The notes below the pieces were generated by a model. It was not told where the DNA came from. It ran no database searches and saw nothing but the letters and a program-made list of their open reading frames with translations. From Methanobrevibacter millerae (GTDB taxonomy: Archaea > Methanobacteriota > Methanobacteria > Methanobacteriales > Methanobacteriaceae): 64,000 bases of DNA. Both the position numbers and the translations under genes were made by a program. Shown piece after piece: positions 25,779 through 57,752 of this stretch (position 1 is the first letter of the stretch; each line of letters starts with the position of its first letter). Where the stretch lies: the NCBI RefSeq assembly GCF_001477655.1, contig NZ_CP011266.1, positions 1,286,001 through 1,350,000 of the forward strand, read 5' to 3'.

Positions 25779-25780
25779 GT

Positions 25781-26233
25781 TTATTCCCCCAAATAGTTAT
25801 GATAAGCCACAATAGATTCAAATAACTGAACAAAACGTTCAAAATTTTTTTCTTTTATTTCATCATCAGTTCCTTGATTAATTTTTTCAATGCAAAATTC
25901 CATAAAATTATAAAATCCATAAGATATTTTTTCCTGTGCTAACTTAGATGCTAATCTAGGTTTTAATAAAAGCAATTGAGGTTTGATTTCACTCCATTCA
26001 TTAGAATATCTATCAATTTTTTTAATATGCGCATAATAATTTCTTAATTGAGTGTGTGATACATCTTCGATAAATGCCTCGGCTAATTCATAAGCCAAAC
26101 CATTATCATCTGTAATTTCATCTATGGTAATTTTATAAAAATCTTTATTCTCATTTCTAATTTTAAATTCATCAACTTTCGGTGAAGAAATATTTTTATT
26201 TTTCTTGTTTTTAGAGTTATTATCTCTAGCCAT
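25781..26233 (-). CDS. csm2: Csm2, small subunit of type III-A
   Basis: The 150-residue helical protein has a basic, Lys/Asn-rich N-terminal tail. The body carries SHTQLRNYYAHIKKI and LLLLKPRLASKLAQ, which match the conserved helices of Csm2. Csm2 forms the belly of the Csm complex along the target RNA. It is placed between cas10 and csm3 with gaps of 4 and 2 nt, as expected. Confidence 0.9.
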   Translation of the reverse strand: MARDNNSKNKKNKNISSPKVDEFKIRNENKDFYKITIDEITDDNGLAYELAEAFIEDVSHTQLRNYYAHIKKIDRYSNEWSEIKPQLLLLKPRLASKLAQEKISYGFYNFMEFCIEKINQGTDDEIKEKNFERFVQLFESIVAYHNYLGE

Positions 26234-28719: not shown

Positions 28720-29949
28720 CTAAATAATAGGGAATTGGGTTTGATTTAAATACTTATCCAAATCATTAAATAAAATATTTGCCGCTTCCAATACTAATTG
28801 TTCAAATTTCAAATAATCATCCTTTGTTTGAAAACTCAAACCATGAGCTAAAATGGATTTATTACGATGGCTTGAACACTCTAAAATTTCATTAGCATTT
28901 TCAGCATAAAAAATACCCAAATCATCATCCAGATTTAAAAGCAAATCATAATCTTTTATTAAGCCAATTTTAACATCATCATTTAAATCAGATCTGCATG
29001 AATCTAAAGTATTTAAATAATCATCAGTTAATCCGTATTTTTTAAGAGATTCCAAATCCACTTTTGAAGTAATAATGTCATATTTATTTTTAAGTCTAAT
29101 TTGAGCTACCAATTCAAAAGAACGGTATAACCTTGCAATTGCATCATCATATTTTCCTTCATCAAATCTTCTTTTAGCGTTATTTAAAAGACTTGCTAAA
29201 ATACATTGGCATCGAAGTTTATGATTTTTATCCACAATTGTTTGCAATGCCATTCTATTCTGTGATAACTGAACTTTTAGCTCCGGAAATTTTGAAATAA
29301 CCTTATTTTGAAATTCAATAGTGAACAATTTAAAAGCAGCTTCATAATTAATGTTATCAAAATTATAATATATATCAAATAATCCTTCATATACTTCTTT
29401 ATCATCTGATTCAACTATTTCATTTAACAGTAATTTTCCTGCTTCAAAACGATTTGAATTGAATAATTCTTTAATTTTTACTAACTGCAATTCATCATAT
29501 ACTGGATAAATATTTTGTGTGCGAATTGTTTCAGTTCCAGAACTTACAGTACCTTTATCACGTTTACCTACAACAGAAACCAATTTTTTATGACATACCA
29601 TTGAAGTGAATGCTGCTGCAACAGACATTGTTTTAGTACCTGAAGTATAATCAATGATAACGTTTTCATCATTAAATTCTTCTGTTTTTACTTTAATTGC
29701 ATTGAAATAATCTTTAAAGTTATCAACCTCTTCTATATGAATAAAATCAAACCCATTATAGTCTTCATTTAATTCATCTTCAATAAATGAAATTGTTTGT
29801 CTAGATTCATCAGATCCAAAGAATATTATTTTTTTGGGATTGTGATGTTCAATTGAAGACATAAGTCCATGAGCCAAACTCTTTTTATGTTCATCACCGC
29901 CAACACCTGTTCCAACAGTCATTAACAAAACAGTTTTTTTACGAGCCAT
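28720..29949 (-). CDS. CARF-HEPN RNase, Csm6/TIGR02710-like (copy 1)
   Basis: The 409-residue protein has an N-terminal CARF (Rossmann-like) sensor with MTVGTGVGGD near residue 11 and DYTSGTKTMS near 100. The C-terminal helical domain ends with the HEPN ribonuclease motif RNKSILAHG (R...H, near residues 360-367). CARF domains bind cyclic oligoadenylates made by Cas10, and the HEPN dimer then cuts RNA non-specifically. This links it to the cas10 gene 58 nt downstream. It is a close paralogue of the next gene upstream. Best described as TIGR02710-like, functionally equivalent to Csm6. Confidence 0.88.
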   Translation of the reverse strand: MARKKTVLLMTVGTGVGGDEHKKSLAHGLMSSIEHHNPKKIIFFGSDESRQTISFIEDELNEDYNGFDFIHIEEVDNFKDYFNAIKVKTEEFNDENVIIDYTSGTKTMSVAAAFTSMVCHKKLVSVVGKRDKGTVSSGTETIRTQNIYPVYDELQLVKIKELFNSNRFEAGKLLLNEIVESDDKEVYEGLFDIYYNFDNINYEAAFKLFTIEFQNKVISKFPELKVQLSQNRMALQTIVDKNHKLRCQCILASLLNNAKRRFDEGKYDDAIARLYRSFELVAQIRLKNKYDIITSKVDLESLKKYGLTDDYLNTLDSCRSDLNDDVKIGLIKDYDLLLNLDDDLGIFYAENANEILECSSHRNKSILAHGLSFQTKDDYLKFEQLVLEAANILFNDLDKYLNQTQFPII

Positions 29950-30009: not shown

Positions 30010-31260
30010 TCATTCAAACTTTGGAAATTTTGTTTTTTCAAGATATATTTCAAAATCATCACAGAACAAATCAATAAATTCGAACACCAAATCATGAAAT
30101 TTATCATAATTATTTTTAGTTTGTGGATTAATGCCATGTGCTAAAATAGAATGATTTCTAGTGTCCAATATCTTTCGAATATGGCTAATATGATTCATAT
30201 AATACTTACCCAAAGGGTCATTCAGTTGATTTAATAATCTGTAATCTCTTTCTAAAGATAATTTAATTTTCCCTTTCATTCTTTTATATTTGTCCATATG
30301 TTTTTTTGGAATAGAATAATTTTCAAGAATTTTAATATCGACATCCGATGAATCAATTTCATATTCATTTTTCAATTTGCTTTGAGCTATAAATTCAAAA
30401 GAGTTATATAATCTGGCTATTGCATCATCATATTTTTTCTCTTCAGCACGTCTTTTCGCATTATTAATGATACTGGCCAATATATATAAATCTTTAATTG
30501 TTTTTTCACAGGATTTATTTCCCAAAATTATATCTAAGGAATCTTTATTAAGTTCTAATTGACCTGAAAATTTAGGAAAATTAATTTTAAATAATTGATA
30601 ATCAAAATTATTAAATGCTTCTTTGAAATTCACTATATCAAAAAAATAATAAAATTTGAATAATTTCAAGTAAGCTTTTTTATTAATGTTTAATCCTGTA
30701 ATATCGCCCAATATAATTTCTCCAGATTCAAAACGATGATTATTAAATAATTCTTTTAGTTTTCTTATTAAAATAATATCATGATACTTATATAAATTCA
30801 AATAATCAATTTTTTCAGTTCCTTCAATGATTAAATTCTTATTTTCCCCATTAGAATATCTTTCTCCAGTTATAGCTACCAATTCTTTATTATATAATGT
30901 AGAAATTAATGCTGCAGTCATAGTCATAGTTTTCGTACCTGAAGTATAATTAATAATTACTTCATATTCATCATTAAATTTTAATAATTCATTTTTAAAA
31001 CTTTCAAAAATTATATCAAAATTATCAACGTCCTTATCATTAAAATTAATACAATGCGAAAAGTCTAATTCTTTGTTTTTTTCTTTCAAATATTTCTCTT
31101 TAATTAAATTTACAGTATTTTTTGATGAATCTGAAGTGAAAAATACAACATAAGTTGCTTTAGTTTGCGTAATACATTTAAAAAGCCCATCAACCAATAT
31201 TTTAACTTCTTTTCCACCCGTTCCCACAGTCATAAATAAAATTCTATCTTCCTTTAGCAT
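30010..31260 (-). CDS. CARF-HEPN RNase, Csm6/TIGR02710-like (copy 2)
   Basis: The 416-residue protein follows the same plan as copy 1: CARF motifs FMTVGTGGKEVK (near 9) and NYTSGTKTMTM (near 103), then a helical linker and the HEPN motif RNHSILAHG near residue 367. The shared phrase DAIARLY(R/N)SFEF marks the pair as paralogues, although they have diverged considerably. It is separated from copy 1 by 60 nt. Two effectors downstream of one Cas10 may respond to different ring sizes or form heterodimers; the sequence does not decide. Confidence 0.87.
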   Translation of the reverse strand: MLKEDRILFMTVGTGGKEVKILVDGLFKCITQTKATYVVFFTSDSSKNTVNLIKEKYLKEKNKELDFSHCINFNDKDVDNFDIIFESFKNELLKFNDEYEVIINYTSGTKTMTMTAALISTLYNKELVAITGERYSNGENKNLIIEGTEKIDYLNLYKYHDIILIRKLKELFNNHRFESGEIILGDITGLNINKKAYLKLFKFYYFFDIVNFKEAFNNFDYQLFKINFPKFSGQLELNKDSLDIILGNKSCEKTIKDLYILASIINNAKRRAEEKKYDDAIARLYNSFEFIAQSKLKNEYEIDSSDVDIKILENYSIPKKHMDKYKRMKGKIKLSLERDYRLLNQLNDPLGKYYMNHISHIRKILDTRNHSILAHGINPQTKNNYDKFHDLVFEFIDLFCDDFEIYLEKTKFPKFE

Positions 31261-31442: not shown

Positions 31443-34145
31443 TTAATTATTATTTCCTAAAATCTCTTTTTTAAGTTTTTCAACATCTTTTTCATCTTTT
31501 TTCAGAATACTGAAACTTTTTGACACTTTTTTCTGATTGAAAAATATATCTTTTCTTTTTATTTCATCATCCTCATCAATATTTCCTTTTACAGTATTGT
31601 ATAAATCAGAATTTTTATCATCACTTCCCCAGGTATTTTCACTGGATTCATGAGAATATATCTTTGAGTTGTGTGAATCAATAATTGATATTTTTTTGTC
31701 TTCATCCGCATCATCATTTAAATCAACAATGACATCTTCAGCATTTATCAGTCCTTCTTTTTGCCATATTTCTAAATCCTTTTCAATGAAGTTAATATCA
31801 AATATTTTTAGAATTTTATCCATAGGATGATTTTCACCCAATAGCTTATTTACCCACAATACATTAGGCTCTATGTAATGGTCATAGAAAAACTCTGAAA
31901 ATTCCTTAAATTCATCATCACTTTTACCTTTATGGTACCAGTCGTATACATCATCAAATGTTACTCCGGCACGTTTTGAAGCAGCATCACTTTTACTGTC
32001 ATTTAGGATTTCTTTTTTGACTATTTCCATCCTTTCATGCAATAATATTTCATCGATTTTTTGTTTTAATTGAAGGTATTCTTCACTAGATAAATTTGAT
32101 TTTTTAAGTGACTTTTCATGGGTTCGACCATCAAGTATCCCTTCAACATATCTCTCCATCTTAAATGACAGATATTTGTCATGAAAATCATCATTAGTTT
32201 GATAATAATGAATTAACTCATCTTTTGTTAAATCAACATGGTTTAATGCTTTTGCAAAAGGTTTGTTTTTAATTTCCACTAAAAATCTTTGGAGGTGTTT
32301 TGGTATGACTTCATTTTCATAGTAATCATATAATTCAGAATATATTTTTGATCCTCTTTCGCCTAAAAGCAAAAAGCGGTTGATTTCATTTACTGAAACT
32401 TCAACATTTTGTGAAATCTCTTTTTTAGTTTGGTTATTCTTAAATCCGTCTAAAACCAAATCAACAATAATCTTCAGGTTTTTATCTTTAAATTCATCAA
32501 ATAGCTTGTTTTTTCTTTTTAACCATTTGTCTACTATTGACTCATCCAAAGCAATGCTTTCACAGACTAAAGATTTTGTTTTTCCTGTTTTTCTCTCATT
32601 TAAATATTTGTCCATAAGGATTTTATTTGATTTAATGTAAAAGTCAGAATCGATTTTAGCATCATCTAACCACTGATAAAAGTCATCAACTGTGATTTTT
32701 GTTAATAAACATGAATTTATCAAATCATTTGTTGTTAAATGTATAAGAAGCTGCTCTTTTCTGTCATTTACGATTTTTTCATATTCCTCGGCGAACTCGT
32801 TTTCCTTGAATTTGGAGTATTTTACCAAATCATCATATTCCTTTTTGGTAATTCCGGCCTCTTCAATAACCTGAGATTTGGATTTTCCTTCATTTAACAA
32901 TTTTAATATCAAGTTTTTCTTGATTTGTGACAGTTCTGATTCAAATTCAGGATAAAATTTTGGGAAAAATTCAAGCATTTCTTTTGAAATGTTTAATTGT
33001 CTTTCAATATTGCTGTCTTTAATTCCTTCTCTTTTAAGACTTAGATAATCTGTTATTAAGAGCCTGTTGAATATTACAAATGATTCATTGATATCATTTT
33101 TCTTATAGTTATTTAATTGGATTAGATACCATCTTTTCAAGTCCTTTTGCTGGATGGTGGTGTATTCAATACTGTCCCAGATGTTTTCAGTGGTTAAAAG
33201 ATCTGTTTCGAACTTGTTTATGATTTCTTCGTTTATTATCTTAAAAAATTGATAGAAAGGTTCCTGTTTGTAAGAACCTTGTCTGTATTCAATGGTTTCT
33301 TTTATTTCAGTTGGTGATAATTTGTCTTCCCGAAATTTTGTTATCAATTCACCTATTCTTATGTATTTGTCGATTCTTGACATGTATGATTCAATGTTTA
33401 GATTGTTGAATTCATAGAATCTCCCTTTCACTTTCAATAAGTTGTTTTTAACTAAAGAATTGATTAACGGAAGAACATAGCCTTCATGAATACCATATTC
33501 TATCAAATCCTCTTTTGTGAATTTGGAATCCTTGCCGAAGCTGTTTCTAATACTTATGAAATTGTTTGCATTGTCAATCTGGCGGTTGCAGTCCTCACAA
33601 AAAATTGAGTAATTTGAATGGTTCGGCTCACCGCACACAACACAGTAGTCATATTTGAACTCCACAATCTCATTGAAATCAGGAATCTCCAAAAGCTCGA
33701 TTTCATCATCACTGAAATCAAGTTTCAAAGGCTTGTATTCAGGAACTCCCTTGTACTGATCATAGCTGTCGCTGTCACGGTAGAACTTCTTGGCAATGTA
33801 GAAAAGCCTTTCATGTAATTGCATGGCCACAACATACTCGTTTTTTTCAATATCCTCAAAATTGTCATGGATATGGCTTCTCATGTTATAGGCGTTTTTG
33901 ATTTTTTCCTTAAATCCATAGGCAATTCCGTCCAGTCTGTAGACTGCATCAATCTGGTCTGAAAAGTTCTTTCTTGAATTGTACTGGATATTTACTGAAT
34001 TTAAGTATTGCTTTAAGATATATTCTAAAAAAGTGGTTGCATCAGCCTTTACGCCTGAAGGAGAAATATTAACCTGTTTTTCAATACGGTTTCCAAGCTT
34101 CCATAATGTAGTATCAAAATCCCTTAAAAAATCAAAATTAGACAA
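31443..34145 (-). CDS. 900-residue zinc-ribbon protein with tandem HTH-like repeats
   Basis: No known family is recognised for the whole protein. Residues ~1-130 resemble the helical DUF4145 module found in defence proteins. A zinc ribbon follows (CVVCG...FCEDC, about 168-187). Residues ~200-800 hold about eight diverged ~60-70-residue helical units with a helix-turn-helix look, such as LLNEGKSKSQVIEEAGITKK, SKSDAASKRAGVTFDDVY and TGKTKSLVCESIALDESI. The tail is acidic then basic. The start is TTG at 34145, preceded by GGTGAG. It leads the CRISPR-associated gene run (180 nt before the CARF genes), so it may be a regulator or DNA-binding partner. Function unknown. Confidence 0.7.
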   Translation of the reverse strand: MSNFDFLRDFDTTLWKLGNRIEKQVNISPSGVKADATTFLEYILKQYLNSVNIQYNSRKNFSDQIDAVYRLDGIAYGFKEKIKNAYNMRSHIHDNFEDIEKNEYVVAMQLHERLFYIAKKFYRDSDSYDQYKGVPEYKPLKLDFSDDEIELLEIPDFNEIVEFKYDYCVVCGEPNHSNYSIFCEDCNRQIDNANNFISIRNSFGKDSKFTKEDLIEYGIHEGYVLPLINSLVKNNLLKVKGRFYEFNNLNIESYMSRIDKYIRIGELITKFREDKLSPTEIKETIEYRQGSYKQEPFYQFFKIINEEIINKFETDLLTTENIWDSIEYTTIQQKDLKRWYLIQLNNYKKNDINESFVIFNRLLITDYLSLKREGIKDSNIERQLNISKEMLEFFPKFYPEFESELSQIKKNLILKLLNEGKSKSQVIEEAGITKKEYDDLVKYSKFKENEFAEEYEKIVNDRKEQLLIHLTTNDLINSCLLTKITVDDFYQWLDDAKIDSDFYIKSNKILMDKYLNERKTGKTKSLVCESIALDESIVDKWLKRKNKLFDEFKDKNLKIIVDLVLDGFKNNQTKKEISQNVEVSVNEINRFLLLGERGSKIYSELYDYYENEVIPKHLQRFLVEIKNKPFAKALNHVDLTKDELIHYYQTNDDFHDKYLSFKMERYVEGILDGRTHEKSLKKSNLSSEEYLQLKQKIDEILLHERMEIVKKEILNDSKSDAASKRAGVTFDDVYDWYHKGKSDDEFKEFSEFFYDHYIEPNVLWVNKLLGENHPMDKILKIFDINFIEKDLEIWQKEGLINAEDVIVDLNDDADEDKKISIIDSHNSKIYSHESSENTWGSDDKNSDLYNTVKGNIDEDDEIKRKDIFFNQKKVSKSFSILKKDEKDVEKLKKEILGNNN

Positions 34146-34179
34146 AATTACTCACCTGTTATATATAATATTGGAACAA

Positions 34180-34199
34180 TATAATATTTAAATATTATA
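34180..34199. promoter_or_regulatory. 20-bp perfect palindrome in a divergent promoter region
   Basis: TATAATATTT/AAATATTATA is a perfect 20-bp palindrome lying between the divergent starts at 34145 (minus) and 34218 (plus). It may be an operator for one or both genes or overlap their TATA boxes. In DNA this AT-rich a palindrome is less unlikely than elsewhere, so the evidence is weak. Confidence 0.35.
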
Positions 34200-34217
34200 A
34201 TTTTAATAATTATTAAT

Positions 34218-34631
34218 ATGAATAAACAATTCAAGGATTTTTACGACACTCTTTTGGAAAATCTTGACAATTACACAGGAGAATATGAATCCTTTATCAA
34301 CTACGGACCAAATTTATTTAAATTATTATGTGATTTGTTGAATGCAGATATTGATGTTAGTTTAAGACTGCCTATTTGCGGTGCAATAGCTTATTATGTA
34401 ACGCCTGATGATGTGATATCCGAGCAGATTTACGGTCCTTACGGATATATTGATGACATATATTTAGCAACTCATGTTTTGAAAATGGTTGCGGAGAGGC
34501 ACGGGTACGAGTTTTTGCAGGAAAATTCCAATTTTGAAGTAGAGCCTATTGTTAAAGAGTGTGAGATGAAATCTTTAGAGATTTTAAATAATGATGAAGT
34601 GGAAAGTATTATTGCTTATATTGGTTTATAA
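34218..34631 (+). CDS. DUF1232 (YkvA-like) protein
   Basis: The 137-residue protein holds the DUF1232 core LRLPICGAIAYYVTPDDVIS, followed by YGYIDDIYLATHVLKMV. In other organisms these small proteins are often membrane-associated or found near stress and antibiotic genes, and their function is unknown. The hydrophobic segment is short and a membrane helix is uncertain. It is the only plus-strand gene between the CRISPR locus and the defence island and is divergent from the 900-residue protein, sharing a 72-nt promoter region with it. Confidence 0.75.
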   Translation: MNKQFKDFYDTLLENLDNYTGEYESFINYGPNLFKLLCDLLNADIDVSLRLPICGAIAYYVTPDDVISEQIYGPYGYIDDIYLATHVLKMVAERHGYEFLQENSNFEVEPIVKECEMKSLEILNNDEVESIIAYIGL

Positions 34632-34725: not shown

Positions 34726-35874
34726 TTATTTTAAGTTTTCATTTAAATAATTAATAATTTTACGTTTATCTGCACAATCACCGTTAATCCGTATATAAAA
34801 TAATTTTGAATCTATTTTATAGATTTCTTTAGAATTAACTGAAATTCCATTATCATGTTTTATTTGGGATAAATCCATTATTTCAATAGAATAATCAGGA
34901 ATTCCTTTAATAAAGTTAGTTTCATCTTTTTTAAATATTCTCACCAAATCATTATCATTCGGCACTTCTTTTAAACCATAAGGAATAAAAAAATTTATAT
35001 CATTTATTGTAACTATGTTAAAAGTAGATATCAGAAATTTTCTAAATATATTGGATAATTCTTTAATAGAGTTAAGAACATCATCATAATCATTATAAAA
35101 AGTTTTTCCCCTATGTACAATATTGCAACGTACTTTATAATAATAATTTATTGCCCAATTTGATTCAATATCTCCAGATAAATGAAATTTCTTCAAATTA
35201 TCTGTTGTATAAATATCTCTCTTCAATATCCAGATTTTTCTAAAGTTTCAATGAAAACTTGCTCATTAGAAAAACGACGATTATTTAGATAAATTTTGTC
35301 TTTATTATATTTTAAACTGCTAAATCTATCGATTGCAACCCATAATAACATATAATGCATCTGAAGAATAAAAAAACTTTTTATATCTGAACTAAAACTT
35401 GTTTTGGATTAAATATTCGTTTTTTAGTTAAACTATATATTAACTCCAAAGCTTCATTGAATAAAGAATCAAAATGTCCATAAAATTCTCCGGTAGTATC
35501 TTCTGGAAGAGAACTTCCCTTTTCAATATCTTTTCCTTTTAAAACTTTACAGTCCTCACCATTACATGTTATTTCCATCCATTCATATAAATCAAACGGT
35601 TCTGTTTTGCTTATAACATCATAAGCTTTTTTTTCAGAACCTTTTTTAAATTTAATCAAATAACCATATGTTTTAAAATTGTTGTTCTTTTTTTCATCAA
35701 TTAAAGGAACTCCATCTCGTATATACATTTGATAATCTATGCTACTGTAAGAAATTTCATCAACATAATCTTCAATTTCCGAAAATGCCAACTGCCCTGG
35801 TTTAAAAATACCATATGCAAAAAAGGATATTCAATATTCTTTTTTGGAGTCTGAACACACTTATCATTACTCAT
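34726..35874 (-). pseudogene. Gamma-glutamylcyclotransferase-like/HEPN fusion, three frameshifts
   Basis: Four frame segments join into one ~380-residue protein. It runs MSNDKCVQTPKKNIEYP (from 35874), then FFAYGIFKPGQLAFSEIED and GYLIKFKKG, which is a gamma-glutamylcyclotransferase-like fold. It continues SDIKSFFILQMHYMLLWVAI, and finally YYYKVRCNIVHRGKTF, a HEPN-like helix with R...H. Shifts lie near 35830-35835 (in a run of T), near 35385 and near 35228. Adding one base at each site restores the frame, so all look like single-base losses. A ribosome binding site GGTGGTGAT and an upstream AT-rich promoter remain. It is either a recently dead defence gene or an assembly with homopolymer errors. 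Confidence 0.7.
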
Positions 35875-35997
35875 ATTATCACCACCAATTACATATAAAT
35901 AAATATAATTTTTTAAAATTTATTATTTTATACAAATTCCAATTAATTTATCATATTTTCTAAAATTAAATAATCGTGTTTACTAAATAATATTTTA

Positions 35998-37335
35998 TTA
36001 ATCATAAATATCTCTAAATTTTGGGAATTTGGCATTGTCCATACATTCGTCCAGTTCACTGAATGTTTTCTTAGAATAATCAATCAATTTTTCGAATAAC
36101 AAATTAGCATTTTCGCCATCAGCGGGAATTAATCCATGAGCTAAAATGGAATTATTTCGATTAGACAATAAATTATCAAGTTTTTTATCTTTTAAAAATT
36201 TAATAGCTATTTCATCATCAAAACACCATAATAATTCAAAATTTTCCTTTAATGAAAGTTTAAGTGTTTCATTTTTATAATTCTGAAAATCTGGTCTGGG
36301 AGAAATAAATTGCGAAGATTTTAAATTACTTTTACTGACCAATTCTTCTTTAGGAATATGAAATACTTTATTATCCTTTAATCGGTTTTTTTCAATGAAC
36401 CCATGTTCATATAATCGTATTTGTGAAATTAATTCAGCGATTCTATATAATCTTGCTGTTGCATCATCAAATTTTTCTTCTTCTATTCTTCTTTGAGCAT
36501 TATTCAATAAATCCGGTAAATAATAATAAATATCTTTTTCTATAATTTTTCCTTTATTAGAAATTTTATTTTCTAAAAATTTTATATTTTTATCCATTTG
36601 ATTCATGAAATCTCTTTCATTTTTATAAAAATATTCTTTAAGGTTTTCATCATCATTTATCTCTTTTTGAATCATAGTTTTTAAATAATAACCCAGTGTT
36701 GTTTCTGAATAATCATTCTTATTATTAAAATATGGAATCATATTATCAAATTTATCCCATATCTGATATAATTTGACAATTTTAATATACATATCCATTC
36801 TTTCAGCATTATATAATGATTCCTTTGCTTTTTCAAAATAAAATAAAGATTCACTAAACTGATAATTATTAAAATATCTTTTTGCCCTGTTGATTTCAAT
36901 CGTTGCAAGCTGTTTCATAGGATGGAATTCATCAAAGACTTTTTCATGGCCTTTTTTAACATTACCATTTTCCCTACCATCTTCATCAGATCCCACATAT
37001 GAAAATTCACATTCATATCCAACTGATGCCAGAGACAGTCCTACAACCATAGCTTTTGTTCCATTAGAAATTCCTACATGAATTTCATATTCTTCATTTT
37101 TTAGTTCCTTAAATATTTTTTTTGATTTTTCATATGACTCCAAAATACTTTGAAAATCTTTTATTAGACATTCTCTTTTTTCAAATGAATCATCTGATTC
37201 TTCAATTATCTTTTGAATAATATTTTTATATTTTTCATCATAAATAAAATAAACAAGGTTTGGTTTAATTTTTTCTATAGATTTGACAGAACGACCGTAT
37301 GCATCACCTACATGAATTATTAAAGCTTTCTGCAT
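35998..37335 (-). CDS. CARF-HEPN protein, diverged third copy in the drmAB operon
   Basis: The 445-residue protein is related to the two CRISPR-linked CARF-HEPN proteins but more distant. The CARF part has LIIHVGDAYGRS (start) and VGISNGTKAMVVGL (near 100), so the TSGTK motif is changed to SNGTK. A TPR-like helical linker follows (YFNNYQFSESLFYFEKAKES), then DDATARLYRIAELISQ, and the HEPN motif RNNSILAHG near 390. It is the last gene of a minus-strand run behind drmA, drmB and the TPR/cold-shock gene, 27 nt after the latter. It probably senses a nucleotide signal and cuts RNA, but what makes the signal here is unclear. Confidence 0.8.
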   Translation of the reverse strand: MQKALIIHVGDAYGRSVKSIEKIKPNLVYFIYDEKYKNIIQKIIEESDDSFEKRECLIKDFQSILESYEKSKKIFKELKNEEYEIHVGISNGTKAMVVGLSLASVGYECEFSYVGSDEDGRENGNVKKGHEKVFDEFHPMKQLATIEINRAKRYFNNYQFSESLFYFEKAKESLYNAERMDMYIKIVKLYQIWDKFDNMIPYFNNKNDYSETTLGYYLKTMIQKEINDDENLKEYFYKNERDFMNQMDKNIKFLENKISNKGKIIEKDIYYYLPDLLNNAQRRIEEEKFDDATARLYRIAELISQIRLYEHGFIEKNRLKDNKVFHIPKEELVSKSNLKSSQFISPRPDFQNYKNETLKLSLKENFELLWCFDDEIAIKFLKDKKLDNLLSNRNNSILAHGLIPADGENANLLFEKLIDYSKKTFSELDECMDNAKFPKFRDIYD

Positions 37336-37361
37336 GATTAATCACCCCATAATTAAATGAA

Positions 37362-38543
37362 TCAATTAATATTATCAATATGAATATTTACTGCCTCAAT
37401 AGACTCTTTATTTTTTGACCTATCAAATCCTTTTTGAGTATAAAATGAAACATATAATCCCTCACCCAATGACAAAATATCATCTTTAAACTCAGAAACA
37501 TTAAAATAATATCTTTCATAATCATCAGATGTTATAAAACCTGACCGTCCATTATCATGTAATTTTGTTATCATACCGCGCAGTAATTTTTGGTTTTTGA
37601 ATTTGTTTTCTAACCAATACTCTTTAATTTGAGTTTCCAATTCATCCACATCCAAATTACTCTCATCAATATCCAATTTATCAATATCATTTGGAAGTGC
37701 AACATTATTTTCAAGTTTGATTGCTGAAACAAGTTCTGCATGTTTAAGCGCAATATCCGGTTCATCATCCTTTAAAAGTTTATATGTTAAATGATAAAGA
37801 TTAACTTTAATATTTGCCGGTTCATCAGTTAAAATTGCATCAGCAACATATTTGATTGCATTTTTTTCATCACCCAAAATAAAATAATTTTCTGCAATTT
37901 CCTTTGGAATAAACCAGTCCTTTTTAACCTTTGAAACTTTATCCAAATAGACTAAAGCCTTATCTAATTGATTCAACTCTTTTAATGATTTTGCTATTCT
38001 CCAATTAAACCATACATCACTATCATTAGTAAATATATTAAATTCTCTTAAAGCTTTATCAGAAATCAATATACAATTACCATAATCTTTGCATTCGAAA
38101 TATGCTTTTGAAGCATAATTGAAATATTTTTCTTTTCTAGATGGATATAACCGGCCATTGGTTTTATAAGGTTTATAATCTAAAAGAGTAAAATCAATTT
38201 TATCCAACCAATCCAAGAGACATGCATATTCTTCATTTTTATAGAAATAATCTAAAACTTTAAAAACTGATAAAGTGTAGGCACATGTTGAAGTTTTATT
38301 TAAATCACTCTGTGTGGTTAGATTCATTATCAATTTTGCCGAATCAATTAATTCTGTTTCATCCTCAAAATTTTTTACATGTAATTGATAAATGGACCAG
38401 CTGTAAAAAATTTTATCCCATTTCCCGAATTCCTCCGAATTTTTTAAATAAATTTTTTCATATTTCTCTAAAGCTTCATCATATTTTTTTGATTTATAAA
38501 GAGCTTTTGCCTCTGAAAGTTCATCTTTAATTTCATCAGTCAT
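37362..38543 (-). CDS. TPR protein with C-terminal cold-shock-like domain
   Basis: The 393-residue protein starts with TPR-type helices (ALYKSKKYDEALEKYEKIY; others around residues 90-260). It ends in an ~70-residue cold-shock-like beta barrel: RGMITKLHDNGRSGFI, YYFNVSEF and GLYVSFYTQKGF, with the RNA-binding aromatic positions kept. Such domains bind single-stranded nucleic acid. It lies 23 nt after drmB and 27 nt before the CARF-HEPN gene, so the four genes form one operon. It may be an RNA-sensing adaptor for that system; this is inferred. Confidence 0.8.
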   Translation of the reverse strand: MTDEIKDELSEAKALYKSKKYDEALEKYEKIYLKNSEEFGKWDKIFYSWSIYQLHVKNFEDETELIDSAKLIMNLTTQSDLNKTSTCAYTLSVFKVLDYFYKNEEYACLLDWLDKIDFTLLDYKPYKTNGRLYPSRKEKYFNYASKAYFECKDYGNCILISDKALREFNIFTNDSDVWFNWRIAKSLKELNQLDKALVYLDKVSKVKKDWFIPKEIAENYFILGDEKNAIKYVADAILTDEPANIKVNLYHLTYKLLKDDEPDIALKHAELVSAIKLENNVALPNDIDKLDIDESNLDVDELETQIKEYWLENKFKNQKLLRGMITKLHDNGRSGFITSDDYERYYFNVSEFKDDILSLGEGLYVSFYTQKGFDRSKNKESIEAVNIHIDNIN

Positions 38544-38566
38544 TTTTTTACTCCCATATATAAATT

Positions 38567-40405
38567 TTAATTTATAAAAAAGTTTCTATCCAATAATTGA
38601 TTTGAATGTTCACAAGATGTTTCAGATATCAATAAACAATTATGGCAAGCAGAACCATTATATGCACCATCTTCTAATTCTACAGAAGAACATAATGGAT
38701 CATTGGAACAAACCAATAAAGTATTCATGGCATTTCGCAATACTTTCTTAAATTCAATTTCATCAAATACTAAATCTACAAGACCACCCATTCCACTGTC
38801 ATCACTAGGAGAAGTATTGTATATCAGTATACCCCCCTGTTCTGATTCTTCATCCAAATAAACCCTTTCACGCAATGAAGCAGATGAATATCCGCATGAT
38901 AAAGATAAACTCTTAATTATTGCATGTGACAATGTATGCCACCAGATAAATAACGGGTTTTCTGTTTCCGGTCTGTCAGAGAATGCACTAATATTGTATG
39001 TCTTCCATTTTTCAATCGTTTCATCCAAACCATAAGCATAATCAAACGGATTCTCATCTGAAGTTATAAAAATTCCTTCACCTACACCCTTGTATGCTGG
39101 ATACCAGATTTTATGAGGTTCGACATCTTCATCCTCATAGCCTATAGGAATGAAGTTATACTCATCATCAAATTCATCAGGGTTGCTGTTTTTAGATGGA
39201 TGAGGTTTTCTTTGATATGAAAGTTGGGCAGTTACGGTTGTAAGTTTATATATTGCTGAAACTTTCAATGGAAATTCATAGTCCAAACATTTCAAATAGT
39301 ATGGAATAAAATCAGACCTTGAAAAATTAGCACTGTCCTTTTTCTCACCTTTTATAGCATGGAACTCTTCATCAACAGCTTTTGTAAATGATGGATCTCT
39401 TCGGTCAACGTCACGATACTCTTTAAATAAATCAGAAATTTTATATTTTTCAAGATAATCCTCCAAAATCCAAAATTCATCAGGTTCAAGATACTTTAAA
39501 ACAGCATCTTTGAATTTTTCTTTTGTGAATAATGACTCTATATCATCAACATTACTCAATGCATCCATATATGCTTTAAACTGAGAAATATTAAATAAAT
39601 CCAGTATTGACTCATCAAACGTCGGAATTTTAAGAAGTGTTTTTGTATAAGGTAATCTTAAAGATGATGATTGTTTCTGAATAACACTCATCTTCTCATT
39701 ACATCGTCTTGGACGAACAGGTTTTAGAGATAAAATTTTTGTGCCGAAAAATTCTTCATTTTCCGGAATTCTTCCACTACATTGCACTTTATTCTTATAT
39801 ATTTTTTTCATATTGGTACTTTCACCACAAACCGGACATTCTATGACAATGTCCTCTAAAGCACTTCCGAAAGCTTTCCAATAGAAATGATTTTTATTTA
39901 AGCAACTATTTTTTCCACCATGAACTTCAGAATACCAATAAACTTCATCCAGATGGCCATTTGGACATGCTCTAACAAAACGAACATTAGGATTTTTTTC
40001 TTTTTCACAACCCACACATAGTTTTTCATCATACGCACTGCAGTGTTCATCATTCATTTTATGAAAATATAATATTGTAGGATTTCTTTTAAAACACAAA
40101 TGCCACATTGGAAACATTGCTGTAGAATAGATTACACGAGGTTCATCATCATCGATTGAATCGTTAGAAGGAATTGAAAGTAAATGATATTCCACTTTAT
40201 CATTTTCATGTTCCATGTTTAGCAAATAACTCATACGAACATCTTTAATTTCATATTTAGTAAAAAATGCATCATTACAATTATCTTCACCCAATGCCTT
40301 AAGAGAAGGCATTAATCTGGATCCGTTAGGTCCCTCAATTATTGACCCCGGACCATAAACCAGAACAAACTGTGACCTTCTGATTTTTTGTTTATTTAAA
40401 CTCAT
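38567..40405 (-). CDS. drmB: DrmB-like DISARM protein (DUF1998)
   Basis: The ~612-residue protein opens RRSQFVLVYGPGSIIEGPN, as in DrmB, and has several zinc-binding cysteine pairs (CVGCEKE near 125, RACPNGHLDEV near 140, ECPVCGES near 190). It ends with the DUF1998 region: SLSCGYSSASLRERVYLD, GGILIYNTSPSDDSGMGGL, CHNCLLISETSCEH. In DISARM, DrmB is the partner of the DrmA helicase and together they recognise phage DNA. A longer frame would begin at a TTG at 40417, inside drmA; the ATG at 40405, two nt after the drmA stop and preceded by GGTG, is preferred. Confidence 0.9.
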   Translation of the reverse strand: MSLNKQKIRRSQFVLVYGPGSIIEGPNGSRLMPSLKALGEDNCNDAFFTKYEIKDVRMSYLLNMEHENDKVEYHLLSIPSNDSIDDDEPRVIYSTAMFPMWHLCFKRNPTILYFHKMNDEHCSAYDEKLCVGCEKEKNPNVRFVRACPNGHLDEVYWYSEVHGGKNSCLNKNHFYWKAFGSALEDIVIECPVCGESTNMKKIYKNKVQCSGRIPENEEFFGTKILSLKPVRPRRCNEKMSVIQKQSSSLRLPYTKTLLKIPTFDESILDLFNISQFKAYMDALSNVDDIESLFTKEKFKDAVLKYLEPDEFWILEDYLEKYKISDLFKEYRDVDRRDPSFTKAVDEEFHAIKGEKKDSANFSRSDFIPYYLKCLDYEFPLKVSAIYKLTTVTAQLSYQRKPHPSKNSNPDEFDDEYNFIPIGYEDEDVEPHKIWYPAYKGVGEGIFITSDENPFDYAYGLDETIEKWKTYNISAFSDRPETENPLFIWWHTLSHAIIKSLSLSCGYSSASLRERVYLDEESEQGGILIYNTSPSDDSGMGGLVDLVFDEIEFKKVLRNAMNTLLVCSNDPLCSSVELEDGAYNGSACHNCLLISETSCEHSNQLLDRNFFIN

Positions 40406-40407
40406 AT

Positions 40408-43400
40408 TTACACCCAAAAATCAATTGTTTCTTCAACATCCCTAAGTGATTGGGGTGCATCTTTAAATACAACTTTCAAATTTTTATCGTATTTATGACC
40501 TTCATCACCCAAAACAACATGATGCTGAGGTTTTTTAATATAATATTCATTTATTCTCAATAATCTTTTAGATTCAATATTATCTGCGATGAATTCCCAA
40601 TCATTCCAACATTTATCAAGATTCTTTAAAACCTTTTTAACAGAGTCTTCATTAATGTTATCAATAGAATTTAATCTCATTTTAATAATATTATAAACAT
40701 CATTATAATCATTTATTGAATTAATATTTTTAATTGGTTCTTTTCCATCATTTTTCTCCCAATTAACCATCAAATGATTAGCATTTCTTAAAAATGATAC
40801 TAATGATGGACCTAATCCCCTAGACAAACAACCGCTGGAAAACGGTGAAACAGAAACCGGTTCAACATCCATATAGATTCTTGAATGAAATGAAGTAAAC
40901 ATCTCATAGTGATTTAAATCCCGGGATCGACCTGCTTTAAAGAAATCTACAACCAAACCTCCATATTTCCTACCTATACGACCAGTAGCCTGAATATATG
41001 ATCCCGTCGTTTTAGGCTGACTTGTCATTACCATCAATGACAAATGAGAAATGTCAACCCCAGTTCCAAACATAGATGTTGTAAATATTCCATCATATTT
41101 TGGTGGATGATTAAAACTATCCCTTTCAAGATTGTCCAATATCATAGGCAGTTCAGTGGATGACTTACGTCCAGACAATTCTTCCTTATTATCCTCACCC
41201 AATTGTTTTAACTCTATATTACCACCAATATTTTCTAAACGACTTTTAATATCATCCCTATATAATGCAAGGACACCACCCAATTCTTTAATGGAATTAA
41301 AATATCCTAAAGTAGTCCAATAATTATTAATGTTATCATTATCCGTATTGTCTGAAGATACTTTACTCATTCTTGACCACAATCTGACCTGGGGAGTCAT
41401 TGGACCTTTACCCGGAGCATAAAATCCTAAATAAACCCTGCCCGCTTTAGATTCATCCCAAATATCATTAAACATATGGTCCCTAACAAAGAAATTATCA
41501 GAAATATCCAAACCATGTGGTGGGAATTGGAATAATTTTTTTGAAAATAATAAATCCACCTGTTTGGAAGCATTACTAATAGTAGCTGTTGATGCAATAT
41601 ATTTAGGGTTTCCACCCTGTTTTTGAATTATCCCACTTACCATTGACTCATAAAGACCAAATAAGCTACCTAATGGTCCATCAATAAGATGCAGTTCATC
41701 CTGAATAATCAAATCCGGAGGATTTAAAGAATTTACCTCATGATTATATTTTGTCAGGTTTCCGGAAGTATCCGGGAGTAAATTATTTCTATTATACCCA
41801 TAGTATTTATTAAAATAGTTAATATTACCAAATAGACCTCCAGCTTTAGGTTCGAAAGCCAATCTTGCAATTTTATCAGCAGTACCAATTACAACAGTTG
41901 GACATCTGTTATAAACATGATCATCAATCAAATAAGCTGGAATAGGCATTCTAGTATTACTTATAAATGGTGAAACGATTTTACGATTATAGTTTCCATC
42001 GGGAAAGTGAGGTTCAGAGGAATTTGGATATGGACATCCTTCAAACCATTCGACATTATTCAAATCACATTTTGGATTGGTACACCAAATTTCAAAATCA
42101 AAATCACCTTCGATTTTATTACCATATTTATCAATAGAATTTAAACTAGTGAAATATCCTATATTAAAATCTCCCAAAGAGGCAATTTCAAAACCATTCT
42201 CTTTCAGTTTATCAATGATTTCATTTTCAAATTGTATTCTGGAGAATTTACCATGAATTTCAAATGAAATTGTATAAAATCCATCCAAATGATTTTTTGA
42301 TTCAATTCCAACAAAATTAATTTTTTCATTATTAACAAATATTTCATCCAAAATTTCTTCAACATGAGCCATATATTCTGTTGATTTAATAACAATATGG
42401 ACATTGTTCAATTCATCATTAAGACCGGATTCCGGAACAGACAACCATGATCCACAAACAGGGCATTTTAAAATTTGTGCTGGTTCGCCGACGGTGTATG
42501 GTAATCTTACATCATTTCCTTTCAATAAATCCATTGCACCTCCTTTTTTAAGAAGATGTATAGGAGAAACTCCACCACCAACCCACAGTCCTGTAGAAAA
42601 TCTTGTAGAACCATAAATCCAGTCACCAATAATTTCTGAATAATTTGGCCTCCATCCAATGCCTTTATCGGAACAATGGGTTCTTAAAAATTCTGCAGCA
42701 GTAATCATTTTTAATGTTCTTCTAAATTGCTGAACAGTCAGTAACCTTAATGTATATCTGGATATGATTGAAGTTCCCGCACCAGTTTCATTCTTATCAT
42801 GAGCTTTTAATCTTCTTAAAGCAATTGTAAAAGCCATAATTCCCAAATAAGCTTCAGTTTTACCCCCACCTGTTGGAATCCATAAAAGATCAAGAATATC
42901 TCTATTATCTGAATTTTCATCCCAAATATCTTCTATATTCATTAGGAAAAATGCAATTTGAAATGGCCTCCACTTAAATTCAGCACCATCATATTTACCC
43001 CATGTATTTTGCAGAGCAATTGCCTTATTTGCAAAACAAAAAGCTGTATAAATCAAAGGATTAGTTTTAATTAAATTTAAACCTCTTTCCATACGGTTCG
43101 ATGCATCATATTCAATTTCAAGTATTTCTTTTGCAATATTAAGGTACTTTTCCCCAATAGGTTCGGATTCATTTTCTTCAATCCAATCATTATAAAGCTT
43201 CAATAATTTAATTAAAATACCATGAATTTCATTTGGAGAGCAATTAGCCAGGTATTCTGCATTTAATTCATCATTTACTAAAAGTTCATTTTCAATCAGA
43301 TCCAATTTAGGTAACGCTATAGGATATAATGGAACAAATTCTGTCCTCACATCTGATTTTAAAAATTTTTCATAATCATTATTCTTTAGCAAACGAATAG

Positions 43401-44316
43401 AATAATCCGGCCATAGAATATCAATGTCAAATTTATCAAAATAGTCTATTTTTTTCCAAACTGCAGAGCACATATGCCCAAAAGCAATAGTTGGTCTATT
43501 CCTATATAAAAAATCAAGTTTTCGTTCAGATTCATTAAGCAACTCCATGTGCTGAGCTCGGATTCCATCTTCACATATTATTCTGATTGACGGCTGGAAC
43601 AGACATTTATCAATATTGGGCTGAGATTCATTACCTTCTACATCATAACTTAAGTCATTAATCATATAAACCGAAATAGAATAGTTATCATCACTAACTT
43701 TTAGACGTTTGATGTATATTTTAACATATCCTTCATCATCCAACTCTATTTCAGATTCATAATTTTCCAATGTTTTAGTAATAACCAATTCTCTTCCATC
43801 AAATTCTTTGTTTATCGTATCATCATCAACATCTTGTTCATTAACTTCAATTTCAAAGATTTCCCCAAAAGAATGTCTCTGCCATATATCTTTATCAGAT
43901 GAAACTGAATTTTTTTTACCGTTTAAACCGTAAGCTTCATTATGTTCTGAATCTTTAAGATATCTACCCCAAGTAGAACAAATTTTTAATGTAGGATTCT
44001 CAATTTCTATAGAAAATGAAACACCAAAAGATTTAATAAATGATTTAGGAGTTAACTTATTTGAAGGAGTGGCAGTTAATATATCATCAGTTTCAGAGCC
44101 ATCTTCTTGTGCAACATCATCTGTTTCAATGATAATTTCCTGATCTGGTGATTTATCCGAATCTGTTTCCTCCCAACTTTTTGGAATGATAACACCCGTC
44201 AAATATTCAATCCAAGGACTATATGAAATAATTTCATTTTCACCATATCTTGGACCCCTAACCTCTTTGATAAGTTCCTCAATCATCTTTCTTCGAATTT
44301 GTGTATCTGAATTCAT
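40408..44316 (-). CDS. drmA: DrmA-like DISARM helicase
   Basis: The 1302-residue SF2 helicase has Walker A PTGGGKTEAYLG near residue 480, a DELH box (IIQDELHLIDGPLGSLF) near 872, motif III IASTATIS near 900, and the late motifs MFGTGVDISHLSLMVM and IQATGRIGRKYGG near 1110. Length and the long N-terminal domain fit DrmA. DrmA moves along foreign DNA with DrmB in DISARM phage defence. A ribosome binding site GAGAGGAT precedes the start. No drmC (phospholipase D) follows; the operon continues with drmB, TPR/cold-shock and CARF-HEPN genes instead. Confidence 0.92.
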   Translation of the reverse strand: MNSDTQIRRKMIEELIKEVRGPRYGENEIISYSPWIEYLTGVIIPKSWEETDSDKSPDQEIIIETDDVAQEDGSETDDILTATPSNKLTPKSFIKSFGVSFSIEIENPTLKICSTWGRYLKDSEHNEAYGLNGKKNSVSSDKDIWQRHSFGEIFEIEVNEQDVDDDTINKEFDGRELVITKTLENYESEIELDDEGYVKIYIKRLKVSDDNYSISVYMINDLSYDVEGNESQPNIDKCLFQPSIRIICEDGIRAQHMELLNESERKLDFLYRNRPTIAFGHMCSAVWKKIDYFDKFDIDILWPDYSIRLLKNNDYEKFLKSDVRTEFVPLYPIALPKLDLIENELLVNDELNAEYLANCSPNEIHGILIKLLKLYNDWIEENESEPIGEKYLNIAKEILEIEYDASNRMERGLNLIKTNPLIYTAFCFANKAIALQNTWGKYDGAEFKWRPFQIAFFLMNIEDIWDENSDNRDILDLLWIPTGGGKTEAYLGIMAFTIALRRLKAHDKNETGAGTSIISRYTLRLLTVQQFRRTLKMITAAEFLRTHCSDKGIGWRPNYSEIIGDWIYGSTRFSTGLWVGGGVSPIHLLKKGGAMDLLKGNDVRLPYTVGEPAQILKCPVCGSWLSVPESGLNDELNNVHIVIKSTEYMAHVEEILDEIFVNNEKINFVGIESKNHLDGFYTISFEIHGKFSRIQFENEIIDKLKENGFEIASLGDFNIGYFTSLNSIDKYGNKIEGDFDFEIWCTNPKCDLNNVEWFEGCPYPNSSEPHFPDGNYNRKIVSPFISNTRMPIPAYLIDDHVYNRCPTVVIGTADKIARLAFEPKAGGLFGNINYFNKYYGYNRNNLLPDTSGNLTKYNHEVNSLNPPDLIIQDELHLIDGPLGSLFGLYESMVSGIIQKQGGNPKYIASTATISNASKQVDLLFSKKLFQFPPHGLDISDNFFVRDHMFNDIWDESKAGRVYLGFYAPGKGPMTPQVRLWSRMSKVSSDNTDNDNINNYWTTLGYFNSIKELGGVLALYRDDIKSRLENIGGNIELKQLGEDNKEELSGRKSSTELPMILDNLERDSFNHPPKYDGIFTTSMFGTGVDISHLSLMVMTSQPKTTGSYIQATGRIGRKYGGLVVDFFKAGRSRDLNHYEMFTSFHSRIYMDVEPVSVSPFSSGCLSRGLGPSLVSFLRNANHLMVNWEKNDGKEPIKNINSINDYNDVYNIIKMRLNSIDNINEDSVKKVLKNLDKCWNDWEFIADNIESKRLLRINEYYIKKPQHHVVLGDEGHKYDKNLKVVFKDAPQSLRDVEETIDFWV

Positions 44317-44432: not shown

Positions 44433-46268
44433 ATGAATCATTATTTGGAATATAAAAAAAGAAATGACCTGGAAAAAAAGATATTAAAATATGATGATTC
44501 CGACTTAAAAGATATTTTAATTAGAAATAAAAATTTAATAAAGGAATTCAGTTCACTGTCATCTTCAGAAATTGATAAAAAAATAAAAAATATTAATAAC
44601 ACTACCATAACTAATTTATTAATCAATAATATAGACATTAGTGAAATCAATTCTGAATTGGATAAAATAAATAAATATGAAATAAAAGATATTGTTAAAG
44701 AGAATTTTCCTTTAGATGAACCAAGAGAATTGCAGCTTGAAACCATTTCAAAGATATATGATGCAATTGAAAAAGGATATAAATATATAATCCTAGAAGC
44801 TGTTTCCGGATATGGTAAATCATTAATTGCTGCTACATTATCCAATATTTATTCTGAAGAAAAATCATATTTTCTTACAACTACCAATCAGCTTGCAAAT
44901 CAATATTTTTATGATTTTAAAAAATATGATTTCGTAAAAATGAACCCAAGATCCAGTTTTTCATGTAAAAAAACACCCATGAAATGCAGTGCATATCTAT
45001 GCAAATACTCCAAATGTCGTTATTATAAATACAGTGATTTCAATAAAGATTTTGATAAACCATTGTCATGTGAATATCTGTACTCATTAAAAGAAATATT
45101 GAAATCAAATTCTATAATTTGTACATATGATTTTTTCATTAACGAAAACTTTTATCACAGTAATTACTTTAATACTCGAAAATTATTAATTTGTGATGAA
45201 GCACATAATCTCGATGAAAAAATATCTGAATCCATATCACTAAAAATTAATCCGAAACAGTTTACTGAGGATATGAAACTTAATATTAAAAAAGAATTAC
45301 AACATATTAATCAAAATAATGATTATTACTTTTACCTTTTAAAATTTAGGACCAACTATAAAAATAGACTCAACAACGTCAAAAAAGGAAGTGCATTATA
45401 TATAAAACTTAAAAAACGAATAGATGACATATCCAAATTTATGGATAACTTTAAAAATAATGAAAATATGACCTTTGAAGTAGATAGTGATAACTACTGG
45501 ATTTTTAAACCTTTAAAGATAAATAAAATGGCTGATGATTCATTATTGTCCTATGGAGATGTCTCTATTTTTATGAGTTCTTCAATTTTTGATCTCGAAA
45601 ATTTCGCTTTTGATTTGGGAATAGATAAAAATAAAATTTACTCTATAAGAGTACCAAATATCTTTGATCTGTCTAAACATAAAGTAGAAATATCTCCTAA
45701 TTTTGACATGAGCGGAGAACCTATAGAAACTGGCACTGCAGAGGATTGTTTGCCTACAATTAAAAAAATTCTAAAAAAACACAAACATGAAAAAGGTGTT
45801 ATACACACTTTTAACTATGAACAAATGAAATACATAGTAAGTAATATAAAAAACAATCGTTTCATTACACATGACTCGGAAAATCGTGAAAAGATATTGG
45901 AAAATTTTAAAACCAGTGATAAACCACTGGTTTTAGTTAGCCCATCAATGAATGAGGGAATAGATATTCCCGGCGATTTATGTAGGTTCCAAATAATTTT
46001 CAAATTACCCTATTTGCCTTATGAAAATACTTGGATTAATAAGCGCAAAAATCTTTATGAAGATGGAAAAGAATGGTACGACTACAAAATGCTTACAAAA
46101 TTAATTCAAAGTTATGGAAGAGGAATACGCTTTGAAGAAGATTACTGTAAAACATATATTTTAGATAATCGCCTTTTTGATAAGATTAATGAAGATCTTG
46201 AAGATAAAGAAATAATTCCAAAGTATTTCATTAATTCAATCGAAAATTTAAATCAAAATATCGAATAA
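44433..46268 (+). CDS. XPD/DinG-like helicase with iron-sulfur cysteines
   Basis: The 611-residue protein has a Q-like motif (PREQ-type PRELQLETISKIYDAIEK, near 97), Walker A AVSGYGKSLIAA (123-134), a cysteine cluster (C178, C185, C190, C195, C213) resembling the 4Fe-4S domain of XPD/DinG helicases, DEAH at 255-258, and late motifs SPSMNEGIDIPGDLCRFQII and KLIQSYGRGIRFEEDY. These enzymes unwind DNA or R-loops 5' to 3'. The closest relative in the window is the C-terminal half of the protein at 54179-57187. It stands alone on the plus strand between the drmAB operon and the third metallopeptidase. Confidence 0.88.
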   Translation: MNHYLEYKKRNDLEKKILKYDDSDLKDILIRNKNLIKEFSSLSSSEIDKKIKNINNTTITNLLINNIDISEINSELDKINKYEIKDIVKENFPLDEPRELQLETISKIYDAIEKGYKYIILEAVSGYGKSLIAATLSNIYSEEKSYFLTTTNQLANQYFYDFKKYDFVKMNPRSSFSCKKTPMKCSAYLCKYSKCRYYKYSDFNKDFDKPLSCEYLYSLKEILKSNSIICTYDFFINENFYHSNYFNTRKLLICDEAHNLDEKISESISLKINPKQFTEDMKLNIKKELQHINQNNDYYFYLLKFRTNYKNRLNNVKKGSALYIKLKKRIDDISKFMDNFKNNENMTFEVDSDNYWIFKPLKINKMADDSLLSYGDVSIFMSSSIFDLENFAFDLGIDKNKIYSIRVPNIFDLSKHKVEISPNFDMSGEPIETGTAEDCLPTIKKILKKHKHEKGVIHTFNYEQMKYIVSNIKNNRFITHDSENREKILENFKTSDKPLVLVSPSMNEGIDIPGDLCRFQIIFKLPYLPYENTWINKRKNLYEDGKEWYDYKMLTKLIQSYGRGIRFEEDYCKTYILDNRLFDKINEDLEDKEIIPKYFINSIENLNQNIE

Positions 46269-57269: not shown

Positions 57270-57704
57270 TCACTCGGATGTAATTTTATTGTATAAATCA
57301 TCAAGTGTCTTCTCACATTTATCCTTTTTCAATTCACACTCCCATACAGTAATAACAGTCCATCCCATTGCTTCCAGTTCTTTCTGATTTCGCTGATCAC
57401 GCTCTTTATTTCCATAAAGTTTTTTCTTCCAGAAATCAACATTGGATTTTGGCATTACCGCATATTTACATCCGTCATGGAGATGCCAGAAACATCCATG
57501 AACAAACACAACAGTCCGGTATTTAGGTAATACAATATCCGGACTTCCGGGATACCTCTTGTCATTCTTTCGAAATCTAAGCCCTCTTGAAAAAAGATAG
57601 CTGCGAACAAGAATTTCTGGCTTGGTGTCTTTACTCCTAATCCGTGACATGTTATAACTGCGAACCTCTTTACTAACTTTATCAACCATATCAATCAACT
57701 CCAA
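57270..57704 (-). CDS. vsr: Vsr, very short patch repair endonuclease
   Basis: The 144-residue protein shows the Vsr motifs: RSYNMSRIRSKDTKPEILVR, then GSPDIVLPKYRTVVFVHGCF with the catalytic Asp, and WHLHDGCKY with the metal/active-site His residues. C-terminal TVITVWECELK is also typical. Vsr nicks T:G mismatches that arise when 5-methylcytosine deaminates, so it protects sites methylated by the two cytosine methyltransferases of the same operon. It is last in the operon, 48 nt after the restriction subunit. Confidence 0.95.
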   Translation of the reverse strand: MELIDMVDKVSKEVRSYNMSRIRSKDTKPEILVRSYLFSRGLRFRKNDKRYPGSPDIVLPKYRTVVFVHGCFWHLHDGCKYAVMPKSNVDFWKKKLYGNKERDQRNQKELEAMGWTVITVWECELKKDKCEKTLDDLYNKITSE

Positions 57705-57752
57705 TAGAATATTATAGCAATTATTCTGAAAAATAATATAAAAACCTAAAAT

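Follow-up and report, generated by a model that had tools for sequence, protein, structure and literature searches.

We analysed a 64,000-nucleotide (nt) stretch of the Methanobrevibacter millerae genome (NZ_CP011266.1; genome size 2.54 Mb), called here the window, whose coordinates are used throughout, and found at 35998-44316 a run of four genes that joins drmA and drmB, the DNA-sensing core genes of the defence system DISARM, to a TPR protein with a cold-shock domain (TPR-CSD) and a CARF-HEPN ribonuclease (CARF-HEPN A). With moderate confidence we read this run as two defence modules on one transcript, namely a derived DISARM core with TPR-CSD, followed by an RNase of a type III CRISPR system. 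Taken as a whole, the locus is most likely a variant of known systems and not one new machine. As the initial annotation had described, the four genes lie on one strand, and all are intact, full-length open reading frames (ORFs), read from 44316 down to 35998:

40408-44316, minus strand: drmA, a superfamily 2 helicase of the YprA/DrmA family, 1302 amino acids (aa)
38567-40405, minus strand: drmB, a DUF1998/MZB protein (helicase allosteric relay) and partner of DrmA, 2 nt after drmA
37362-38543, minus strand: TPR-CSD, 393 aa, a TPR superhelix with a C-terminal cold-shock/OB-like domain, 23 nt after drmB
35998-37335, minus strand: CARF-HEPN A, 445 aa, an RNase of the TIGR02710/Csm6 family, 26 nt after TPR-CSD

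The first two gaps agreed with those given earlier when measured again, whereas the third had been put at 27 nt.

The identity of DrmA and DrmB as the DISARM core pair was borne out by model matches well above their cut-offs. DrmA matched NF038326 (DISARM_DrmAL) at 1387.6 bits (cut-off 999) and the PADLOC DrmA model at 1453 bits, covering positions 2-1280 of its 1282, and DrmB matched NF038324 at 434.7 bits (cut-off 240); both proteins also matched the solved DrmAB complex 7S9V (1.5e-110 for DrmA and 6.1e-42 for DrmB). The helicase motifs of DrmA are intact (Walker A GGGKTE, DELH and QATGRIGR), and an acidic insert at residues ~47-93 occupies the position of the trigger loop in the solved DrmA. 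The drmB frame encodes 612 aa from an ATG at 40405, with an alternative TTG start at 40417. The other DISARM genes are absent. Neither a phospholipase D (PLD) protein nor a methyltransferase gene lies between the XPD-like helicase gene (44433) and CARF-HEPN A, and no DISARM methyltransferase (DrmMI or DrmMII) was found in the operon, in which drmA is flanked by the divergent XPD-like helicase and drmB by TPR-CSD. A genome-wide search for the PLD subunit DrmC gave three PLDc_2 matches, in frames of 966, 820 and 588 aa and none in a short DrmC-like ORF. The partner of ~1000 aa that follows drmB in archaeal relatives is likewise missing from the locus. The earlier statement that drmC and an adjacent methyltransferase are lacking was therefore confirmed, the nearest methyltransferases lying in a restriction-modification locus at 60698-63966, 16-20 kb from the operon. 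Because the methyltransferase and DrmC were tested for and not found, we speak of DISARM-core genes and do not file the operon as a DISARM member.

To place this pair among its relatives, which are referred to below by genome (G) and locus (L) handles, we compared drmAB loci of the phylum and beyond. DrmA/DrmB matches were present in 9 of 152 genomes of the phylum, six of them close, and a scan of GTDB species genomes yielded 32 loci. The usual archaeal order, of a class 2-like DISARM, is drmMII, an HhH glycosylase/nickase-like gene, drmA, drmB, drmC (a PLD protein of ~157 aa) and the ~1000-aa protein. The window resembles these loci in its full-length DrmA and DrmB, but has TPR-CSD in place of the methyltransferase, HhH, DrmC and ~1000-aa genes. 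In the DrmA tree the window and one other genome, G040, form a clade with support of 100/100, sister to G047 and G105 (L081, Methanobrevibacter thaueri SIG19, of the same GTDB genus) and nested among DISARM loci of archaea with the C5-methyltransferase gene drmMII, HhH, in part drmC, and the ~1000-aa protein; the methyltransferase-free form is therefore derived. The order drmA-drmB-TPR-CSD recurs in G040, the contig of which ends inside TPR-CSD. No other locus has TPR-CSD right after drmB, and in both of these drmA lacks a neighbouring methyltransferase. The Methanobacteriales G047, G146 and G149 have kept the methyltransferase and a protein of ~870-970 aa and are otherwise DISARM-like, but drmC is gone, and the contig of G105 holds only the methyltransferase side of a DISARM locus. 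Judging from these loci, the loss of DrmC is older than that of the methyltransferase and common to the relatives. DrmC is reported to be dispensable and often missing (PMC9142583); with its absence also from G047, G146 and G149, the lack of DrmC in the window is unremarkable and not informative. The zinc-ribbon protein of ~1000 aa found 3ʹ of drmB or drmC in the relatives (L082-L111) had no PADLOC or NCBIfam match and a sub-threshold Pfam AAA match, and looks like an undescribed DISARM component.

Beyond G040, ~50 other DrmA loci contained neither TPR-CSD nor CARF, other archaeal phyla being covered non-exhaustively for TPR-CSD/drmB pairs. No TPR-CSD was detected in 28 other DISARM genomes, although this run was weak since the control gave no signal either. 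Viral contigs held no TPR-CSD relative, and none of their 17 distant DrmA-like loci had TPR-CSD or CARF; TPR-CSD was not found on plasmids, where the CARF-HEPN query retrieved only Thermus TIGR02710 proteins at ~25%. In the open-access literature we found nothing on DISARM with TPR-CSD or CARF-HEPN. The proposed partnership was supported for TPR-CSD, which accompanies drmAB in one further genome, whereas CARF-HEPN is joined to it in the window genome only, there without an obvious promoter of its own.

The TPR-CSD protein is best seen as a candidate nucleic-acid-binding adaptor. It matched the PADLOC model PDLC01170 (TPR fused to cold shock-like domain) at 570.8 bits over its full length (1-368 of 368), while the Pfam CSD match was weak (17.9 bits, under the cut-off). 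The AlphaFold2 model had a pLDDT of 66; IFIT1 appeared among its generic TPR structure matches and was not taken as functional evidence. A YprA-like helicase is found with TPR-CSD and a TATA-binding protein in TALON/TOTE systems (PMC12458937). The window too pairs a YprA-family helicase with TPR-CSD, but its helicase is of the DrmA type with a separate DrmB, and no Pfam match to a TATA-binding protein, a NERD nuclease or an ARMADA-like YprA was obtained among the scanned genes of 20980-54182.

The fourth gene points to a different system. CARF-HEPN A matched PDLC01813 at 649.5 bits (1-421 of 421), TIGR02710 at 147.9 bits (cut-off 83.9) and the Csm6 HEPN model PF09670 at 110 bits (cut-off 27), and its R-X6-H HEPN motif (RNNSILAH) is intact; the AlphaFold2 model of the CARF-HEPN protein alone, with a pLDDT of 38, was too poor to be of use. 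Strong members of the family occur in ~16 genomes, nearly all of them a few kb from cas10. In most of the loci compared they lie between csm5 and cas6b, and in G092 and G075 just 5ʹ of cas10, together with further CARF-HEPN genes. CARF-HEPN A shares its family, its HEPN motif and this synteny of its relatives with the type III-A accessory CARF-HEPN proteins (Csm6/TIGR02710), but it stands outside the csm operon, behind drmAB-TPR-CSD, on the strand of cas10 and 7.3 kb upstream of it instead of adjacent, and the csm5-cas6b slot is empty in the window. Its nearest relative, in G075 (L052), is 85% identical and has no drmAB or TPR-CSD nearby; the order there is dndG, dndH, CARF-HEPN A, C', C and cas10. 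As in the window, the gene comes right behind a DNA-targeting operon and before cas10, but the operon is dndG-dndH instead of drmA-drmB-TPR-CSD and the gap is 400 nt. Since the relatives lie in type III loci and the 85%-identical one is without drmAB, the association of CARF-HEPN A is with type III and not with drmAB.

The DNA itself was examined for signs of a common transcript. Shine-Dalgarno-like sites precede drmB (GGGTG), TPR-CSD (GGGAG) and CARF-HEPN A (GGGGTGAT), and the terminator scan, which did find terminator-like sites, placed none between any of the four genes; promoter-like sites were not commoner than in shuffled sequence. The homology of the window and G075 CARF-HEPN A genes at the DNA level sets in exactly at the start codon and reaches 88 nt beyond the stop, and their upstream regions differ. 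The beginning of this homology at the start codon, the 26-nt gap, the good ribosome-binding site and the lack of a TATA-like match in the 100 nt 5ʹ of CARF-HEPN A support co-transcription, and we infer that the drmAB-TPR-CSD operon probably took over the transcription of this gene.

A number of observations weigh against the two-module reading. The full four-gene order is known from a single genome, that of the window. The TPR-CSD family occupies 68 places in 49 of the 152 genomes and most copies are solitary, often beside valS, so that the adjacency to drmB could be casual. In the TPR-CSD tree the window copy falls in a 100/100 clade of 12 whose members are of the type found with a 900-aa HTH protein and an SseB-like gene, and the G040 copy groups with the solitary type, in another clade. 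In G040 drmB and TPR-CSD are 131 nt apart, with a TATA-like TTTATATA ahead of TPR-CSD, and co-transcription there is uncertain for these reasons. Finally, both CARF motifs of CARF-HEPN A have diverged, GGSxEP to GDAYGR (HVGDAYGR) and DFTGGTKPM to GISNGTKAM, and from this its ligand may possibly be other than ordinary cyclic oligoadenylate, or there may be none.

The first of three alternatives is that independent genes were piled up by repeated insertion in a defence island, with chance read-through as the closest tie between them. The abundance of mostly solitary TPR-CSD genes and the different clades of the two drmAB-linked copies would fit this, as would the density of defence genes in the window and its short gaps: 15 of its 33 same-strand neighbour pairs are within 30 nt, which makes short gaps alone weak evidence of an operon. 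The TPR-CSD tree requires two separate origins of the drmB neighbourhood, although DrmA has one, so TPR-CSD was either recruited twice next to drmAB or swapped once. Either event makes more sense if TPR-CSD beside drmAB is useful. Moreover, TPR-CSD comes right after drmB in both members of the sole methyltransferase-less DrmA clade, which is unlikely by chance, and the family keeps company with YprA-type helicases in TALON (PMC12458937) and with UvrD or XPD helicases in G024, G077 and G012. We therefore regard mere juxtaposition as possible but rather unlikely.

The second alternative is the hybrid proposed by the initial annotation, a single abortive-infection machine that would pass the detection of DNA by DrmAB on through TPR-CSD to RNA cleavage by CARF-HEPN A. 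The one-strand order, the short gaps and the absence of an evident promoter 5ʹ of CARF-HEPN A would agree with it, and the diverged CARF motifs could mean a new ligand. But CARF-HEPN A comes from a family of type III-A loci, the 85%-identical member of that family lies beside dndGH with no drmAB or TPR-CSD at hand, no CARF was present near any other drmAB examined, and the four genes encode no nucleotide cyclase or polymerase. In the homologous loci examined drmAB was never accompanied by CARF-HEPN, which argues against the relay, and by TPR-CSD in G040 alone. The relay is thus not supported and we consider it very improbable; the other possibility raised earlier, that Cas10 close by provides the signal, is more likely.

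With the two-module reading, the following mechanism can be proposed. In the first module, drmA-drmB-TPR-CSD, the operon would have lost its own methyltransferase, HhH, DrmC and ~1000-aa partner and recruited TPR-CSD instead. DrmAB would bind exposed 5ʹ single-stranded viral DNA, 5ʹ-tailed as in incoming or replicating virus DNA, and, freed from autoinhibition by the trigger loop, would translocate or unwind and so block virus replication. Recognition of 5ʹ-tailed single-stranded DNA and activation by displacement of the trigger loop have been published for the Serratia DrmAB complex (7S9V), and the same mechanism is proposed here because of homology to it. TPR-CSD may bind single-stranded nucleic acid as an adaptor, as could be compared with the TPR-CSD of TOTE/TALON, and possibly aids the choice between self and non-self where no cognate methyltransferase is present. 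Self-protection might come from the trigger loop together with DNA structure, from TPR-CSD, or from C5-methyltransferases 16-20 kb away; 5-methylcytosine is reported to lower the ATPase activity of DrmAB (PMC9142583). The second module would be CARF-HEPN A, which as a Csm6-type RNase would belong to the adjoining type III-A system but now be under the transcription of the first. It may still be activated by cyclic oligoadenylate, adding a growth-arresting layer of RNA cleavage, and by family and context the nucleotide most likely comes from the nearby Cas10 with its GGDD motif. A shared transcript would put the RNase at hand whenever drmAB is expressed. Should drmAB-TPR-CSD prove functional, it would represent a defence derived from DISARM with neither methyltransferase nor PLD nuclease, and would bear on how DrmAB avoids attacking self and on what serves as the effector in systems without DrmC.

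The type III-A locus lies 3ʹ of the four genes on the same strand and comprises arrays, cas1, cas6b, csm5, csm4, csm3, csm2, cas10 and two further CARF-HEPN genes:

30010-31260, minus strand: CARF-HEPN C, in the type III-A cluster
28720-29949, minus strand: CARF-HEPN B, immediately 5ʹ of cas10
26238-28661, minus strand: cas10 (csm1), GGDD palm motif intact, HD changed to KD (LFKDIGK)
22262-26233, minus strand: csm2, csm3, csm4, csm5 and cas6b, the last two overlapping

The HD motif was missing in two of the 14 Cas10 proteins compared, those of the window and of G075 (EDIF; L052 10956-13409). Both genomes combine an HD-less Cas10 with the shared CARF-HEPN A, whose two CARF motifs deviate from those usual in the family, and with a DNA-targeting operon, drmAB or dndGH, directly 5ʹ. 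With two cases only, this pattern is a lead and not a finding. The third alternative would explain it by an outsourced DNA arm, in which drmAB (dndGH in G075) attacks DNA for a Cas10 that lacks its HD motif and the three CARF-HEPN RNases form the RNA arm. The restriction of HD loss to these two genomes speaks for this, but they are only two, the gap between dndH and CARF-HEPN A in G075 is wide, and there is no evidence of DrmAB or Dnd responding to recognition guided by CRISPR RNA; we rate this explanation as highly improbable. A bolder form of the two-module reading, in which TPR-CSD confers the self/non-self choice in a methyltransferase-free DISARM that is jointly expressed with cyclic oligoadenylate-driven RNases and an HD-dead Cas10 as an echeloned system, by the same logic as dndGH in G075, is in our opinion distinctly unlikely. 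The likely shared transcript and the parallel with dndGH beside an HD-dead Cas10 would make a coupling of innate DNA defence and CRISPR signalling testable.

Apart from the solitary copies, some TPR-CSD genes accompany a 900-aa HTH protein (HTH900), DUF1232 and an SseB-like gene, and a few copies stand beside UvrD- or XPD-type helicases. In relatives HTH900 and TPR-CSD proteins from the clade of the window copy make up a module, and in Methanobrevibacter the order DUF1232, HTH900, TPR-CSD, a small gene and SseB-like recurs (L072, L079, L127, L130). In the window DUF1232 and HTH900 are present at 31443-34631, yet TPR-CSD stands behind drmB:

31443-34145, minus strand: HTH900, 900 aa, with HTH-like and zinc-ribbon-like stretches

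TPR-CSD adjoins UvrD-type helicases at L125 4258-9659 and L041 1-2737; the UvrD-type helicase of G077 has a weak Cas4-like C-terminus, and one in G024 lies ~7 kb from cas10.

On the other side of the operon, the first gene is divergent from drmA:

44433-46268, plus strand: XPD/DinG-like helicase, of the same kind as that 5ʹ of drmA in G040

As a specific partner of drmAB it was rejected, since the family is present in 151 of the 152 genomes, and for the same reason the synteny shared with G040 says little. Beyond it lie an MrcB-N/peptidase-like gene, large proteins without assignment and a second XPD-like helicase. The region 57270-63966 contains vsr, two C5-methyltransferases and an McrB-like and McrC-like restriction pair, and we take it to resemble an LlaJI-type restriction-modification system; its C5-methyltransferases could supply the methylation absent from the drmAB operon.

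Between CARF-HEPN A and DUF1232, at 34726-35900, there are short, apparently broken ORFs, one of which (166 aa) contains a HEPN-like R-X4-H stretch and matches DzbB weakly. At 18077-21375 the CRISPR arrays and their flanks are partly duplicated, with a second, partial copy of cas1 (18946-19272; DNA repeat 93% identical) inside the array region, and a reverse transcriptase-like gene (10760-12253) and a TnpB/Cas12f-like gene (8791-9936), both PADLOC matches, are found near the arrays.

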